Shown here piece by piece: positions 16,870 to 28,872 of a DNA stretch of 64,000 nucleotides. Source of the stretch: Chthonomonas calidirosea T49 (GTDB lineage: Bacteria > Armatimonadota > Chthonomonadetes > Chthonomonadales > Chthonomonadaceae); the NCBI RefSeq assembly GCF_000427095.1, contig NC_021487.1:558001-622000 (forward strand), in the 5' to 3' direction. Numbering within the stretch: position 1 is the stretch's first letter; the number at the start of each line of letters is the position of its first letter. The notes under the pieces were generated by a model. That model worked only from the letters and a program-made list of their open reading frames with translations. It was not told the DNA's origin and ran no database searches. The position numbers and the translations under genes were made by a program.

Positions 16870-17457
16870 ATGCACAAAGTCACTGCTGACGCCATCACTA
16901 TGGATCAAGCTACTTCTCCAAGCTCGTCAGAACCCTCGCGCGCACGTGATGTGTTCTACGAGCGTGAACGTGGGGTCTATGCATTGCGTATCCTGCGCGA
17001 TGTCGCCCATGCTGTTGTTCGCTTTCCTAAGGCCGATTCCCGAACAGACGCTATCCAAAACCTGTTCAACACCGTTGCTAAAGCGGGAATCCCTCTTTTT
17101 CTTATCAAACTTCATCGCTCTTCCGTTACCTTTGCACTTGCCGGTGCCTACCTTGACAGAGCCGCAGAGGTGCTGCAAACTGCTGGGTACGATGTCTCCA
17201 CAAGGCGAGACCTCGCCATGGTAACCGTTGTTGCCTCCTCCATGAGAGAGATGGCCGGCATCATGGTGGACATTGCCGACGCCCTCTATGAAGCTGGCGC
17301 CCGCATCTATGAAGCCGGCGATTCGCATGATACCGTGCAGTGTCTCATCGAGGCCGATCGAGTTCCCGCCGCCATCGAGCAGCTGTGTAAAGTTTTTCAT
17401 CTTGATAAGAGTGCTATCCACGAAGAGCATCTGCCCATTCAAGAGCTGCCATCATGA
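16870..17457 (+). CDS. ACT-domain protein preceding aspartate kinase
   Basis: 195 aa with two ACT-like modules (about residues 35-105 and 115-180). The second (MVTVVASSMREMAGIMVDIADALYEAGARI is its core, here cited in part as MAGIMVDIADALYEAGARI) resembles the regulatory end of aspartate kinases. It has no kinase domain. The stop overlaps the ATG of lysC by four bases (ATGA), so the two are translationally coupled. Probably an allosteric partner or amino-acid sensor for the kinase; inferred from context. No ribosome binding site precedes ATG 16870, consistent with near-leaderless translation; ATG at 16900 is an alternative start, also without a site. Confidence 0.7.
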   Translation: MHKVTADAITMDQATSPSSSEPSRARDVFYERERGVYALRILRDVAHAVVRFPKADSRTDAIQNLFNTVAKAGIPLFLIKLHRSSVTFALAGAYLDRAAEVLQTAGYDVSTRRDLAMVTVVASSMREMAGIMVDIADALYEAGARIYEAGDSHDTVQCLIEADRVPAAIEQLCKVFHLDKSAIHEEHLPIQELPS

Positions 17458-18854
17458 AAATCCTCGTCCAAAAATTCGGAGGTACCTCTGTAGATACCAA
17501 AGAGCACCGAGAGATGGCCGTCCGCAAGGTCATCAAAGCGCGAGAGGCCGGCTATTATCCCGTTGTCGTTGTCTCAGCCATCGGGCGTGCGGGCGCTCCC
17601 TATGCCACCGACACCCTTGTGCAGTTTCTAAAAAGCATAGACCCCCAAGTGCCCCCAGCCCCACGTGAACTCGATATGATCATGGCCTGCGGAGAGATCA
17701 TCTCCACCGTGGTGTTCGCCCATACCCTCCAAACATTCGGCTATAAATCCATCGCGCTCTCCGGTGGGCAAGCCGGCATTATCACCGATCCGCAGTTCGG
17801 CGATGCACGTATCCGCGAAATACGCCCTCAATATATCCTGCGCTTGCTCGAACAGGGCTACATTCCCGTAGTCTGTGGCTTTCAGGGAACCACTGAGCCG
17901 GAAGATACCCATGAACATGGAGCTATCACCACCCTCGGTCGCGGAGGCAGCGATACCACCGCGTCAGCGCTCGGTGCTGCCTTAGGCGCTGAAGCCGTTG
18001 AGATCTATACCGACGTAGATGGCGTGAAAACAGCCGACCCAGATATCGTCCCAACCGCGCGTACCCTCGACGTCTGCTCCTACGAGGAGGTCGCCGAGAT
18101 CGCTCATCAAGGAGCCAAGGTGGTCCATCCCCGTGCAGCGGAGATCGCTATGGACTACAATATCCCCCTATGGGTGAAATCAACCTTTTCCGACGCGCCC
18201 GGAACACGCATTGTAGGACGTCAAGCCTCTGAAGCGACCTACCCGCGCATTACCGGCATTACCCATACCGGAAAAATTGTCTATATTCGCCTCGAGATCG
18301 GAGAGACCGAATACAAACCGCTTATTGAGCGCGAAGTCTATCGCATGATGGCACGCGCGGGCGTCTCCATCTACCTCGTCACCTTCAGTAATCGCTCGCT
18401 CTCCTTTGCCGTCGAGCGTAAGGTCTATCCCATCGCCCGCGATCTGCTCGATGGCATGGTGGTGCCCATCACATTCGAACAACCGGATGAAACAGGACGC
18501 CTTGCAGCCTTCTATATTTTTAAATTCTCCGAAGGGCTCGATCTTGCCTACAGCGTGCAACGCCCCCTGCTCCGTCCCCTCGAGCAGCATGTGCACGTGA
18601 TAGACGTCAATGCCAGTGTCATCGAAAGTTGTACCATGGTGTCGGTCATTACGAGCGGGCATCGCACCATGCCAGGCGTGATGGCTCGGATATATGCGCT
18701 GTTAACAAATGCTGGAATCGCCGTCTATCAAACAGCCGATTCCGACATGTCCGTCTCCTGCCTTATCCCTGAAAGCGAAGTTGAAAGAGCCGTTCGACTC
18801 CTTCACGCAGAGCTGTGTGAGCAGACGCCCAAACCCATAGAGGCACTTTCATGA
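17454..18854 (+). CDS. lysC: Aspartate kinase
   Basis: 466 aa, phosphorylates L-aspartate in the lysine/threonine/methionine and diaminopimelate pathway. Kinase blocks: N-terminal VQKFGGTSVDT, VVVVSAIGRAG, TLGRGGSDTTASALGAALGA, YTDVDGVKTADP and GAKVVHPRAAEIA. C-terminal part (about residues 290-460) carries two ACT domains for feedback control. It sits between an ACT-only protein (4-base overlap upstream) and an AtpZ-like gene (4-base overlap downstream). The pathway enzyme DapF is encoded 9 kb downstream beyond the ATP synthase genes. Confidence 0.93.
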   Translation: MKILVQKFGGTSVDTKEHREMAVRKVIKAREAGYYPVVVVSAIGRAGAPYATDTLVQFLKSIDPQVPPAPRELDMIMACGEIISTVVFAHTLQTFGYKSIALSGGQAGIITDPQFGDARIREIRPQYILRLLEQGYIPVVCGFQGTTEPEDTHEHGAITTLGRGGSDTTASALGAALGAEAVEIYTDVDGVKTADPDIVPTARTLDVCSYEEVAEIAHQGAKVVHPRAAEIAMDYNIPLWVKSTFSDAPGTRIVGRQASEATYPRITGITHTGKIVYIRLEIGETEYKPLIEREVYRMMARAGVSIYLVTFSNRSLSFAVERKVYPIARDLLDGMVVPITFEQPDETGRLAAFYIFKFSEGLDLAYSVQRPLLRPLEQHVHVIDVNASVIESCTMVSVITSGHRTMPGVMARIYALLTNAGIAVYQTADSDMSVSCLIPESEVERAVRLLHAELCEQTPKPIEALS

Positions 18855-22810: not shown

Positions 22811-24511
22811 ATGGCCATTCGACCAGAAGAGATAACTTCAATACTCGAGCGAGAGCTGCTCGAAACCACAAAACGTGAAATTGCCACTTACGATGCTGGA
22901 ACCGTCCTTCAGGTAGGAGACGGCATCGCCCGAATCTACGGCCTGCAAGGCTGCATGGTTTCAGAACTGCTGGAGTTCCTCGACGAAAAAGGGAACCCCA
23001 TTGTGGATGAAAACGGTGCCGTCATTCGTGCGATTGCCCTCAACCTCGAAGAAGATAACGTGGGTGCCATTATCCTCGGCCCCTGCGAACAGATTTTCGA
23101 GGGCACAACGGTTCGGCGAACGAACCGCATCATCGAAGTGCCCGTGGGCGAAGGCCTGTTAGGCCGTGTAGTAAGCGCCCTAGGTGACCCCCTCGATGGC
23201 AAAGGCCCTATCACGGCAACGCGCTATGCCTATATCGAAGCCAGAGCTCCCGGAGTTGTGGAGCGACAACCCGTAAAAGAGCCCCTACAAACCGGGCTTA
23301 AAGCGATAGATGCTCTCGTGCCAATCGGACGTGGACAACGTGAGCTGATTATCGGTGACCGCGGTATTGGAAAAACCGCCATCGCCCTCGATACCATCAT
23401 CAATCAAAAGGGCGGCGATGTCATCTGCATCTACGTTGCCATCGGTCAAAAGGCCTCAACCGTAGAAAACGTGCGTCGTACCCTAGAAGCTGCCGGCGCT
23501 ATGGACTATACCATCATCGTAGCCGCCAATGCCTCCGACCCGGCTCCAATGCAGTATATCGCCCCCTACACCGGTTGTACCATTGGCGAGTACTTCCGCG
23601 ATAAAGGACAACATGCCGTCGTCATCTACGACGACCTCTCTAAACATGCCGTCGCCTATCGCCAAGTCTCTCTCCTTCTTCGACGCCCCCCCGGACGCGA
23701 GGCTTATCCAGGCGATATCTTCTACCTGCATAGCCGCCTTCTCGAACGAGCCGCAAAAATTCGCGAAGACTATATCATTGTTGATAAAACGGCTCCCGAA
23801 GATACGAAAGAAGGCATCAATGGCAAACTCTATGAGGGTAGCCATGGGCTTAGCGAGGCTAAAAAAGACCTTGCCGCCATGCCTAATGCCGATTCCCTCG
23901 AAATTCGCAAAAAGCCCGGTACTGGAGGAAGCCTCACGGCGCTGCCTATCATTGAAACGTTGGCCTCCGACGTCTCTGCCTACATCCCCACCAACGTTAT
24001 CTCCATCACGGACGGCCAAATCTTCCTTGAACCAGACCTGTTCTTCGCCGGTGTGCGCCCAGCTATCAACGTGGGTATCTCGGTCTCTCGCGTGGGACGC
24101 TCAGCACAAATCCCAGCCATGAAAAGCGGTAAAGTGGCAGGACGCCTACGTCTTGACCTCGCCCAATTCCGCGAAGTTCAAGCGTTTGCCCAATTTGCCT
24201 CCGATCTTGATAAGGTGACCCGCGATCAGCTCGAGCGTGGTTCTCGACTCATTGAGATACTTAAGCAGCCTCAGTTCCAACCAATGCCCGTGGAAAAACA
24301 GGTTACCATCATCTATGCCGGCAATAACGGCTATCTGGATGATATTCCTGTAAACGCTGTAAGCAAGTTCGAGGCGGAGTTCCATCCTTTCATGGAAAAG
24401 AACTACCCCGACATCCTTGAAAAAATCCGAATTACCAAAGATTTGGATGAAACCACGGAAGCAGAGTTGAATAAGGCTATTCAAGCCTTTAAAGCCCAGT
24501 TCCAACCCTAG
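22811..24511 (+). CDS. atpA: ATP synthase F1 subunit alpha with internal insertions
   Basis: 566 aa, about 60 longer than usual. The P-loop GDRGIGKT is at residues 182-189. [23 protein letters not shown] and ISVSRVG, with the conserved Arg, are intact. Two additions are visible: about 10 residues near 57-70 ([14 protein letters not shown]), and about 45-50 residues at about 318-370 between LERAAK and [12 protein letters not shown], which are normally only a few residues apart. The second is polar and rich in Asp, Glu, Lys and Gly. The frame is continuous, so this is not a frameshift. The beta subunit gene does not follow. Confidence 0.95.
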
Positions 24512-24538: not shown

Positions 24539-24575
24539 ACGATCTCTCTTAGCTTAAAACGCTAAGAGAGATCGT
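24539..24575 (+). promoter_or_regulatory. Strong hairpin between atpA and the fusion gene
   Basis: Perfect 15-bp stem (ACGATCTCTCTTAGC / GCTAAGAGAGATCGT) with a 7-base loop, 27 bases after the atpA stop. No T-run follows; the Shine-Dalgarno AAGGAGGT of the next gene begins four bases later. Could be an attenuator, a processing site or an mRNA 3'-end stabiliser that separates atpA from the downstream gene. Confidence 0.7.
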
Positions 24576-24592
24576 TCACAAGGAGGTTTTCT

Positions 24593-27028
24593 ATGAACCC
24601 GGAGACATCCCTACAAGAGGCTATCGAACAAACAAAACGCGCGATCGAACAGCTACGGGAACGAGTAGTTACTGCTATCATGCAGCGCAACCGCCTGCAA
24701 GAAGAGGTCACCAAACGAGAGCGCGACCTCGCCATGAGAAAAGAGAAGCTTGTTCAGGCCAGTAAACTGCAAGATCCATCTGTAGCGAATGAACTGCGCG
24801 AGGAGATCGCCACCCTAGAAAAAGAGCTTCAAACGCTTAAAGACAGTCTTGCCAAAGCGGAGGTCGAAGCCGAAACACTTAAAGCGCAACGGCCTGCAGA
24901 AGAAGCTCGCCTTAATCTTGTGTTGCGCGATCTACAGGCGCGCCTCGCGATGGGCTACACCACTGTAGTGGAGAACCGACAACCAGGCTCCGGAGTGGGC
25001 GAAACCGAAGAGATGTTTCAACGGGCTAGCGATAAAATTGAAGGCCTGCAGTCCGAAGCGGCAGCTCGGCAGGAGGTTACCGGTGCTTCACCTCACACCC
25101 CTAGTCCTACCCAATCAGCAGAGCAGTTGCTTTCCGATCTTGAGCGCCGACTAGGCCTTTCTCCTACCGAAACTCCTGCAACCCAATCTGTAGAGCCGGC
25201 AGAACCCAGTTCATCCCCTCTAACTGCCGCCTCCCCCGAAGCCGAACCTGCCGTTTCTGAACCACCAGTGGCCTTTGAAGCACCTACATCACCTGAGGAA
25301 CCATCGGTGTCCATCCCTGTCCCAGAGGAGCTCGCTCAATCCACACCGTCCGTAACCGGCATTACTCCGGAAGAGATGGAGGCCCTCCTCTCTCATCAGC
25401 CAGGACAAACCGAATCGACTTCTCCCTCTACCGTAGACGAGCAAGCCGTTCAACCTTCTACCTCCCCTTGGGACTATACAACGTCAACTACAGCCTCCTC
25501 CGAAACCCTAGAAGTTGTCTCTTTCCCCGTCGAAGAAGAGCAGATGGAACCTCCTCAAGCGACTATCGAAGGCCAAGATATAGAAGTATCTCAACCCATC
25601 GCCATGGAAGAAACTGCCACGGTAGAAGCTCCAGCCGCTCCCACATCTGTTGAACCGCCTAGCGAGACGATAGCCCCCGAAGGTGTGGAACAGCCCAAAG
25701 AAGAGGTCGCCTTCTATCCCGTTACCCAACCTACGCCGAAACCGGTGAGCTACGATCCCTCCTATCGCGTCCGCGTTGCCGCTATCGGCACAGGTGGCAT
25801 CTTTCGTGGCGCCCATCTACCCTGCTACCCACTTATTCCACAAGCCAAACTCGTGGCCCTGTGCGATCCGGATCAGGATGCACTTCAACAAGCATATCGC
25901 CGCCTTCAAAACCTTACCGCAGAACAGATCGAACGGGCTCGCGAACGCCATGATGACGACGCTATCGAACGCCTCATGCGTGACCTCGATGAGGTTCGCC
26001 TCTTCTCCGATATCAGTGAGGTCATCCATGAGATTCAGCCCGATCTCGTAGACATCTGCACCCAACCCGTTCTCCATGTTCCTCTGGCCATTAAGGCACT
26101 TGAAGCCGGCATTCACGTCATGTGTGAAAAACCGCTCTGCCGTAGTTGGCTGGAAAGCGAACGTCTCATCTCTACCATTCAACGCACGGGTCGCTTCTAC
26201 CAGCATAACGAAAACTGGCTCTTCGACCCGGACTACTATACCGCTAGCAAACTCATTCATGCCGGAGCCATCGGAGAACCGCTGCTTATGTTCCTGGCCA
26301 CAGCCCATGGCGGACCAGAAGGTAATCCCAAATTTTGGAACCCTGAATTCGGTGGTGGTGGCTCACTTCTCGATAATGGCATTCACGCCATCGGTGCCGC
26401 CTGGTTTCTGAGCGGCTTGAAAAAACGTCCAACCATGGTCAAGGCGGTCGAGCCTTTTGGCATGACCATCCGAATGCCGTTGCGCATTATTGATGGACAC
26501 TATCAAACCGTCACCGTGGATGATGACGCTCATATTCTCATCCGTTTTGAAGATGCAGACACAGGAGCCTGGACGAATGCACACGTTGAAGGGTCGTGGA
26601 GCCACCGGGATTCTCCTGATACCGTGGTCATCGGAACAACAGGCCGCCTCTATTTCACCTCTCAAGAGGGACGCCGCTATGTCGTCATAACCGATGCCTA
26701 TGACCGAGAAGTCAGACGTATCGAAGCAACCGGCCCTACCTGGCAGTTTTGGCCATCCTCCTTCTACGGCGAAATCCTTAACATGGTGCAATGCGTTCGC
26801 ACCGGCCGCCCACCCCTCTGTGATGCTCAATTCGGTGCCGATTGCTCCGCCATCGTCGGAGCTGCTTATCTCTCTGAAAAGAATGGTCGGCGTGCCGTTC
26901 ATCTCGATGAGTTTCGTGAGTTTGCACGCTCCATCGCCCAACGCTATCCCAACGATCCTCAAGCTGCAGATGATGCGCTTGTAGAAACACTTCTCTCTGC
27001 GGTAAGAAAATCCGAATACAACACTTGA
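24593..27028 (+). CDS. PspA-like coiled coil fused to a Gfo/Idh/MocA oxidoreductase
   Basis: 811 aa in three parts. Residues 1-125 are a charged coiled coil resembling part of PspA/IM30 (RAIEQLRERVVTAIMQRNRL, AEEARLNLVLRDLQARLAMG). Residues about 130-385 are a Pro/Ser/Thr/Glu-rich, probably disordered linker. Residues about 390-780 are a Gfo/Idh/MocA NAD(P)-dependent sugar dehydrogenase: Rossmann VRVAAIGTGGIFRGAHLP, LVALCDPD, and the EKPLCRSW motif with the catalytic-site Lys, then GGGSLLDNGIHAIGAAWF in the C-terminal half. ATG with AAGGAGGT. It sits inside the ATP synthase operon between atpA and atpG (28 bases before atpG). Substrate and role unknown. Confidence 0.8.
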   Translation: MNPETSLQEAIEQTKRAIEQLRERVVTAIMQRNRLQEEVTKRERDLAMRKEKLVQASKLQDPSVANELREEIATLEKELQTLKDSLAKAEVEAETLKAQRPAEEARLNLVLRDLQARLAMGYTTVVENRQPGSGVGETEEMFQRASDKIEGLQSEAAARQEVTGASPHTPSPTQSAEQLLSDLERRLGLSPTETPATQSVEPAEPSSSPLTAASPEAEPAVSEPPVAFEAPTSPEEPSVSIPVPEELAQSTPSVTGITPEEMEALLSHQPGQTESTSPSTVDEQAVQPSTSPWDYTTSTTASSETLEVVSFPVEEEQMEPPQATIEGQDIEVSQPIAMEETATVEAPAAPTSVEPPSETIAPEGVEQPKEEVAFYPVTQPTPKPVSYDPSYRVRVAAIGTGGIFRGAHLPCYPLIPQAKLVALCDPDQDALQQAYRRLQNLTAEQIERARERHDDDAIERLMRDLDEVRLFSDISEVIHEIQPDLVDICTQPVLHVPLAIKALEAGIHVMCEKPLCRSWLESERLISTIQRTGRFYQHNENWLFDPDYYTASKLIHAGAIGEPLLMFLATAHGGPEGNPKFWNPEFGGGGSLLDNGIHAIGAAWFLSGLKKRPTMVKAVEPFGMTIRMPLRIIDGHYQTVTVDDDAHILIRFEDADTGAWTNAHVEGSWSHRDSPDTVVIGTTGRLYFTSQEGRRYVVITDAYDREVRRIEATGPTWQFWPSSFYGEILNMVQCVRTGRPPLCDAQFGADCSAIVGAAYLSEKNGRRAVHLDEFREFARSIAQRYPNDPQAADDALVETLLSAVRKSEYNT

Positions 27029-27056: not shown

Positions 27057-27935
27057 ATGGCAACCATTCGACAAGTCCGTGCCCGTATTCGGGCTGCAAA
27101 AAATATCCAACAGATCACCAAAGCCATGAAAATGGTGGCAGCCGCCCGATTCAAGAGGGCGCAAGACCGAGTGCAGGCTGCTCGTCCTTACGCACAGATT
27201 ATGCGCGACATGATGGTGCGACTTGCTAGCTCCGCAGGAGAACTGCTTGATCACCCCCTCCTGCAACAGCGGGAGCTGCAGAATATCGGCTTTCTTATTA
27301 TCACCTCCGATAGGGGTTTGGCCGGCTCCTATAACTCCGCCATGCTGCGCCGCGCCACTGAACTGCTTCGTCCCTACGACCGCTCTCAGATCAAACTCTA
27401 CCTCGTGGGTCGCAAGGGCATCCAGTTCTTTCGTCGCCGAGGCTATCAGATCGCCGCGGAGTTCAGCATTCCCGGAACCGGTGCGACCTTTGCCGATGCA
27501 CAGGATATCGCTCGTGTCGTACGTGACGCCTTCCTTAACGGCGAGATCGATCGACTCTACCTTCTTTATACACGCTTCTACACCGCTATCACTACTCGAC
27601 CGACCGATCTTCAACTTCTTCCCATTCAACCACCGGAGAAGCGTGAGGAGAGCGCCGAGACACCGCAGTACTATGATGACTATATCTTTGAGCCATCCGC
27701 CACCGAGATCCTGAGCGCGCTTCTACCACGTTACATAGATGGTCAAATCTATCAATGCCTCCTTGAATCGACAGCGAGCGAGCATGGTGCCCGCATGACG
27801 GCGATGAGCGCCGCCACCGATAATGCAGGAAAAATGATTCAAACGCTTACACTGCAACTCAACCGTGCACGACAAGCCAACATCACCCGCGAAATATCCG
27901 AGATCGTTGGCGGCGCAGAGGCCCTAAAAGGATAA
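27057..27935 (+). CDS. atpG: ATP synthase F1 subunit gamma
   Basis: 292 aa central shaft. N-terminal TIRQVRARIRAAKNIQQITKAMKMVAAAR-type block (seen as KNIQQITKAMKMVAAARFKR) and C-terminal ASEHGARMTAMSAATDNAGKM are diagnostic. A 28-base palindrome lies 14 bases after the stop and the next gene is convergent dapF, so atpD and atpC do not follow in this cluster. Confidence 0.95.
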   Translation: MATIRQVRARIRAAKNIQQITKAMKMVAAARFKRAQDRVQAARPYAQIMRDMMVRLASSAGELLDHPLLQQRELQNIGFLIITSDRGLAGSYNSAMLRRATELLRPYDRSQIKLYLVGRKGIQFFRRRGYQIAAEFSIPGTGATFADAQDIARVVRDAFLNGEIDRLYLLYTRFYTAITTRPTDLQLLPIQPPEKREESAETPQYYDDYIFEPSATEILSALLPRYIDGQIYQCLLESTASEHGARMTAMSAATDNAGKMIQTLTLQLNRARQANITREISEIVGGAEALKG

Positions 27936-28011: not shown

Positions 28012-28872
28012 TTATTGGCAAAGAGGATAAAAGCCGCGATACACTCGCTCTGCAGGGCCCGTCATCTCGATCTCAGCACCAGGACGCCAACGAACGATCA
28101 GCTCCCCTCCTTTGCTGCGAACAGTTATCGGAACATTAGGAGACGCGCAGTTCTTGAGAACTGCCGCTACCGCTGCCGCACAAGCACCCGTTCCACATCC
28201 CCAGGTCTCCCCCGCCCCGCGCTCCCATATGCGCATCGAAAGCACATTGGGTGCTTCCAGTACGCACCACATCAGCGAGGTACGCTCTGGAAATAGAGGG
28301 TGCCTCTCAACGAGAGGGCTAATAGCCAAAAAGCGCTCATCGTCCGGCAGCTCCGGCACAAATGTAACAGCATGGGTTGTGCCAGTTGAAAGTGCTGTGA
28401 TGAGCAGCGTCTCACCTGGCATGACCTCCAACGGAAAATCTATCACAGGCTCCTGAGCTACGTGCATAGGAATGGAGGCCGGTTCAAACTGCGGTTGCCC
28501 CATGCTCACTGTGATCGCAACGATCTGCCCTGACTCATCTCGGTGCAACTGGGCACGGCGCACTCCTGCCAAAGTGCCGATATAGAGTATGTCTTTGTTT
28601 ACTATCCCCTCCTCCACAGCATAACGAGCTACACACCGTAGACCGTTGCCGCAAACATCAGGGGTGCCGTCTGGATTGTACATACGCATCATCAGATCTG
28701 CGAAAAGCGTGCGTTCCAAAATAATGAGACCGTCCGCACCAATGCCCATATGCCGATCGCACATTTCGACCGCAAGCGCCGACCAGTCGTGATCGTTCGA
28801 ATCCCTCCCATCTACGATCACGAAATCGTTTCCAACGCCATGCATCTTTGTAAAGGCGATCTTTTCGGCCAC
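28012..28872 (-). CDS. dapF: Diaminopimelate epimerase
   Basis: 286 aa, converts LL- to meso-diaminopimelate for lysine and peptidoglycan. The two catalytic cysteines are C74 (PDVCGNGLRC) and C226 (WGCGTGACAAAV). N-terminal FTKMHGVGNDFVIVDGR is typical. Supports a peptidoglycan with DAP. Convergent with the ATP synthase operon. Confidence 0.96.
   Translation of the reverse strand: MAEKIAFTKMHGVGNDFVIVDGRDSNDHDWSALAVEMCDRHMGIGADGLIILERTLFADLMMRMYNPDGTPDVCGNGLRCVARYAVEEGIVNKDILYIGTLAGVRRAQLHRDESGQIVAITVSMGQPQFEPASIPMHVAQEPVIDFPLEVMPGETLLITALSTGTTHAVTFVPELPDDERFLAISPLVERHPLFPERTSLMWCVLEAPNVLSMRIWERGAGETWGCGTGACAAAVAAVLKNCASPNVPITVRSKGGELIVRWRPGAEIEMTGPAERVYRGFYPLCQ

Follow-up and report, generated by a model that had tools for sequence, protein, structure and literature searches.

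Between the ATP synthase genes atpA and atpG of Chthonomonas calidirosea T49 lies a single gene whose 811-residue product joins a PspA/IM30 paralogue, a disordered linker and a Gfo/Idh/MocA dehydrogenase. We refer to this fusion gene as X (24593-27028, + strand, in the 64,000-nucleotide stretch of DNA analysed here, hereafter the window), to its PspA/IM30-type part as X_N and to its dehydrogenase part as X_C. The reading that we tentatively prefer, with a confidence slightly below even, is that X is a lineage-specific soluble dehydrogenase mounted on a PspA-type assembly domain and co-expressed with the atp genes. Judged from sequence, the fusion of a PspA paralogue to a dehydrogenase appears to be a variant of known families for which we found no earlier report. 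Our search of the open-access literature returned no description of this architecture, and nothing relevant on the Chthonomonas ATP synthase or on PspA in Armatimonadetes. The main text of two PSP surveys (one of them PMC11237479) names neither an oxidoreductase nor ATP synthase. Published PspA fusions (PspA-PspAA and PspA dyads) likewise consist of a PspA-family protein with an added part, but there the partner is PspAA or a second PspA, whereas in X it is a dehydrogenase (PMC11237479).

Structure of the fusion gene

Gene X is a single intact open frame running from ATG to TGA. The probability that an open frame of 811 codons arises by chance at this base composition is about 5e-14; the five remaining frames contain 14-46 stops. 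The Shine-Dalgarno sequence AAGGAGG (24580-24586, +) pairs with the anti-Shine-Dalgarno sequence at -11.9 kcal/mol, the strongest pairing of the ten starts compared in the region of the atp operon. The gap from atpA (F1 alpha, 566 residues; 22811-24511, +) to X is 81 nt, and that from X to atpG (F1 gamma, the last gene of the operon; 27057-27935, +) is 28 nt. The initial annotation had described a continuous gene with a good ribosome site at this place, and the frame, its ribosome site and its intactness in relatives bear this out.

Pfam matches above the curated cut-offs divide the protein into PspA_IM30 (residues 2-163), GFO_IDH_MocA (393-537) and two C-terminal Gfo/Idh/MocA domains. On the DNA, X_N comprises residues 1-190 (24593-25162, +), as delimited by Pfam, profile and fold. 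It is followed by a linker of about 200 residues (25163-25765, +), recognized by composition and dN/dS, and by X_C, residues 392-811 (25766-27025, +), for which Pfam, AlphaFold2 and Foldseek agree. The linker carries a net charge of -34 in the window's X. Across the fused genes its length ranges from 35 to 266 residues, and the longer linkers are acidic and enriched in P, E, A, V, S and T. In close relatives, dN/dS is 0.07-0.09 for X_N, 0.2-0.48 for the linker and 0.04-0.05 for X_C. The low values in each of the three parts indicate that all are translated and under constraint, and purifying selection is strong on both X_N and X_C. The architecture read earlier from the letters, a PspA-like part, a disordered linker and a Gfo/Idh oxidoreductase, is thus confirmed by domain, profile and fold matches and by the dN/dS of the linker.

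The gap between atpA and X contains a perfect 15-bp RNA hairpin (24539-24575, +; z = -3.9 against shuffles) that ends just 5' of the ribosome site. Strong hairpins of unrelated sequence occupy the same place in G016, G002, G012, G001, G005, G011 and G014. The hairpin could perhaps allow the genes of the operon to be expressed differentially, or influence the stability of the mRNA. A scan for promoters and terminators was not informative: 11 promoter-like sites were found over the operon vs 6.8 expected, and terminators were at chance level.

X_N is a second PspA/IM30 paralogue

X_N is homologous over helices alpha1-alpha5 to the PspA/IM30 (Vipp1) family, PF04012, of the bacterial ESCRT-III superfamily. 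It scores 36 bits against PF04012 (cut-off, 33.9) and is 29% identical to the PspA of its own genome (encoded from genome position 1524799 onward; E 3e-10), with the alignment extending over alpha1-alpha5. Searched against the PDB, the X_N profile matched Vipp1/PspA structures only. An AlphaFold2 model of X_N (pLDDT 86.8) consists of helices at residues 3-58, 62-128, 135-162 and 176-186, and its top Foldseek matches were again Vipp1/PspA. The hairpin, alpha4 and an alpha5 motif are kept. The last of these, AEQLLSDLERRLG (25118-25150, +), is a short conserved helix at the end of X_N that recurs in fused genes, split genes and canonical PspA.

We searched 291 genomes of the phylum, 17 of which belong to the family Chthonomonadaceae (f1). 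A profile built from X_N only gave at least two matches in every f1 genome, namely X_N and canonical PspA. Its matches among the 274 other genomes (155 of them, mostly with a single match) lay in PspA frames of canonical size, and judged by this frame size no X_N was seen there. X_N is present in 17/17 f1 genomes and is divergent in sequence, with 25-42% identity to that of the window. By sequence and predicted fold, X_N is therefore assigned as a true second PspA/IM30 paralogue beside canonical PspA.

X_N differs from the family in being a second copy, fused to a dehydrogenase inside the atp operon, and in two features related to membranes. Helix alpha0 is absent in 16/16 X_N examined but present in 14/14 canonical PspAs, and the mean net charge of the hairpin is -1.0 in X_N (range -4 to +3) vs +3.1 in canonical PspA (+1 to +5). 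PspA deprived of alpha0 still forms rods but loses membrane tubulation (PMC12358876), and the initial membrane binding of IM30 occurs through the positively charged alpha1-3 hairpin (PMC12636044). As both the helix and the positive charge are lost, membrane association of X_N should not be assumed. The initial annotation had proposed such an association from the PspA-like part, a suggestion that these comparisons do not support.

X_C is a predicted Gfo/Idh/MocA dehydrogenase

An AlphaFold2 model of X_C (pLDDT 89.4) displays a Rossmann N-domain and an alpha/beta C-domain, as in Gfo/Idh/MocA oxidoreductases such as DgpA, glucose-fructose oxidoreductase (GFOR), aldose-aldose oxidoreductase and levoglucosan dehydrogenase. 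Foldseek matched the model to DgpA, GFOR and aldose-aldose oxidoreductase at about 20% identity, and the nearest structures are thus sugar or glycoside oxidoreductases. The lysine of the EKP motif and the D...H pair of this superfamily are conserved. Lys513, the catalytic-type lysine (26129-26131, +), Asp594 and His598 of the GGGSLLDxGIH motif (26372-26386, +) and a GxG motif are kept in all 22 orthologues. These features assign X_C to the Gfo/Idh/MocA dehydrogenases, with its catalytic residues intact and activity predicted. Unlike the known members, it belongs to a separate, uncharacterised clade that has an additional helical insertion following beta2, and is joined to a PspA-type domain. 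A plasmid search returned ordinary Gfo/Idh/MocA matches only, none spanning 80% of the query.

Distribution and history in Armatimonadota

X_C was found in 32/291 genomes, in f1 (except G003) and in f2, f6, f12, f16, f23 and f30. The orthologues outside f1 are standalone dehydrogenases, 46-65% identical, without the PspA part, and only in f2 does the gene adjoin atpG. In the f2 genome G017 it lies just 5' of atpG, with three unrelated genes separating it from atpA. In f6, f12, f16 and f23 it is located elsewhere, with atpA and atpG neighbouring each other, and no shared neighbours were seen around the standalone genes of these four families.

The fusion itself is present in 15/17 f1 genomes, counting G015, in which it is cut at a contig end. 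In G013 the two parts are adjacent genes of 182 and 440 codons, while its close relative G005 has them fused; in G003, which is nested among fused relatives, X_N stands alone between atpA and atpG. The simplest history places X_C beside atpG in the common ancestor of f1 and f2, with an alpha0-less PspA copy joining it and being fused to it in f1, where the fusion was later split once and X_C was lost once. Alternatively, two neighbouring genes may have become fused several times independently. The presence of fused, split and single-part versions within one family provides ready natural controls.

Concerning gene order, atpG is immediately preceded by X, or by the half of it that remains, in 16/17 f1 genomes. 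The X-atpG pair of G004 is together but apart from atpA, in G007 one additional gene lies between atpA and X, and the contig of G015 ends before reaching atpA. G009 is the genome in which the fusion is linked neither to atpA nor to atpG. The gene added in G007 (L125:6241-7779) has 512 codons and a signal-peptide-like start. As atpG adjacency is kept in 16/17 genomes of the family, X is no chance insertion at this locus. The initial annotation had advised looking for the same insertion in related genomes, and regarded its absence from the atp operons of all relatives, together with separate transcription, as a sign of chance; the gene or its remaining half was instead found beside atpG nearly throughout f1. 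As separate observations on the synthase genes, atpD lies at G000:C1:663153-664535, about 80 kb from the atpBEFFHA-X-G cluster, so that the F1 genes are in two places, and in the sister family f3 (L176-L180) atpG is separate from atpA.

Possible roles of X

In the reading that we prefer, X_N is a lineage-specific second PspA/IM30 copy that keeps the parts thought to drive assembly (the hairpin and alpha5), while the parts for membrane insertion and binding (alpha0 and the positive hairpin) are gone. It would most likely self-assemble, or co-assemble with the canonical PspA of the cell. The flexible linker would then carry a presumably NAD(P)-dependent dehydrogenase of the sugar or glycoside type on this assembly. 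Its position between atpA and atpG suggests that X would be co-expressed with the genes of ATP synthase. Three facts do not fit smoothly: the X_N sequences are divergent, G003 has X_N without X_C, so that there X_N must have a use independent of the enzyme, and in f2 the enzyme occurs without X_N. If X does assemble, a domain of the ESCRT-III family would here serve as the scaffold of an enzyme rather than as a membrane remodeller, its membrane-binding parts having been removed by evolution.

The place of X may also be meaningless. An ordinary sugar dehydrogenase could have been fixed fortuitously close to atpG in the ancestor of f1 and f2 and later been fused to a PspA copy, an explanation that we regard as rather unlikely although it is the strongest competitor. 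The C. calidirosea genome is known to be disorganised and non-operonic (PMC4959169), and we counted about 30 Gfo/Idh/MocA places in it, X among them. Unrelated neighbours persist at this locus as well: in several families the atp operon is preceded by lysC and an ACT-domain gene, and in f1 atpG is followed by dapF. We know of no role of lysC, dapF or the ACT-domain gene in ATP synthase. On the other side, the X-atpG pair is not only retained across the family but was moved as a unit in G004, and drift poorly explains why a PspA paralogue is present in all 17 genomes, and at this place in 16. In the window, lysC and the ACT-domain gene are at 16870-18854 and dapF, inverted, is at 28012-28872, so that the atp genes lie between two genes of the lysine pathway.

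We consider it improbable that X is an accessory or regulator of F1Fo, its PspA-like part binding the enzyme or its membrane site and its dehydrogenase reporting sugar or NAD(P)H status. This is in essence the idea of the initial annotation, which suggested that X could tie redox state or envelope stress to ATP synthase. Such a role would accord with the placement of X between two F1 genes and with an atpG adjacency that survives even where atpA has been separated. Each half also occurs at this place by itself (X_C in f2, X_N in G003), and the PspA part is the one that every f1 genome has. These points are countered by the fusion of G009, away from both genes, and by the loss of the membrane-binding features. 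The dehydrogenase of other families stands alone, far from atp genes that are themselves adjacent, and this part is therefore not specific to ATP synthase. Moreover, lysC, the ACT-domain gene and dapF are also conserved neighbours, so linkage by itself does not indicate an ATP synthase function, and we found no literature link between an X-type protein and ATP synthase. A regulatory role of X on ATP synthase is possible, but the only things that speak for it are the gene position and the persistence of the halves at the locus. In its most specific form, in which the PspA/ESCRT-III-type domain is a lineage-specific F1Fo accessory tethering a dehydrogenase through which the synthase is coupled to sugar or NAD(P)H state, we think it highly doubtful. 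Should X prove to contact ATP synthase, this intensively studied machine would gain an accessory factor of a new type.

We also weighed whether X is a two-product gene, in which ribosomes would also bind internally, where the dehydrogenase domain begins, and make the free enzyme in addition to the fusion. An ATG is kept at this position in 12/15 fused genes, most of these with an AAAGGAG-like sequence at about the spacing found in the standalone f2 orthologue, and 11/12 of the sites fall in the top 13% by strength when compared with background ATGs. However, the X of the window itself has neither ATG nor Shine-Dalgarno sequence there. In a control with synonymous codons the combined p was 0.29, indicating that the internal Shine-Dalgarno sequence follows from the encoded amino acids. 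We judge a second product to be quite unlikely.

Finally, an artefact, in which two genes were wrongly joined in a long frame or a coiled coil merely resembles PspA, would be in keeping with the separate genes of G013, with the weak matches common for coiled coils and with a Pfam PspA_IM30 match at E 0.01 in only 10/16 X_N, but is refuted for practical purposes by a frame free of stops in 15 genomes, a linker dN/dS below 1 and the joint testimony of reciprocal profiles, alpha4/alpha5 motifs and fold in favour of PspA.

In addition to X, the locus has a second lineage feature. AtpA contains an insertion of about 52 residues directly after LLERAAK, which is common to f1, f2 and f3 in the same order and absent in f6, f12, f13, f16, f20 and f23. 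This insertion was considered as a docking site for X and rejected, since the insertion also occurs in the sister family f3, which lacks X.
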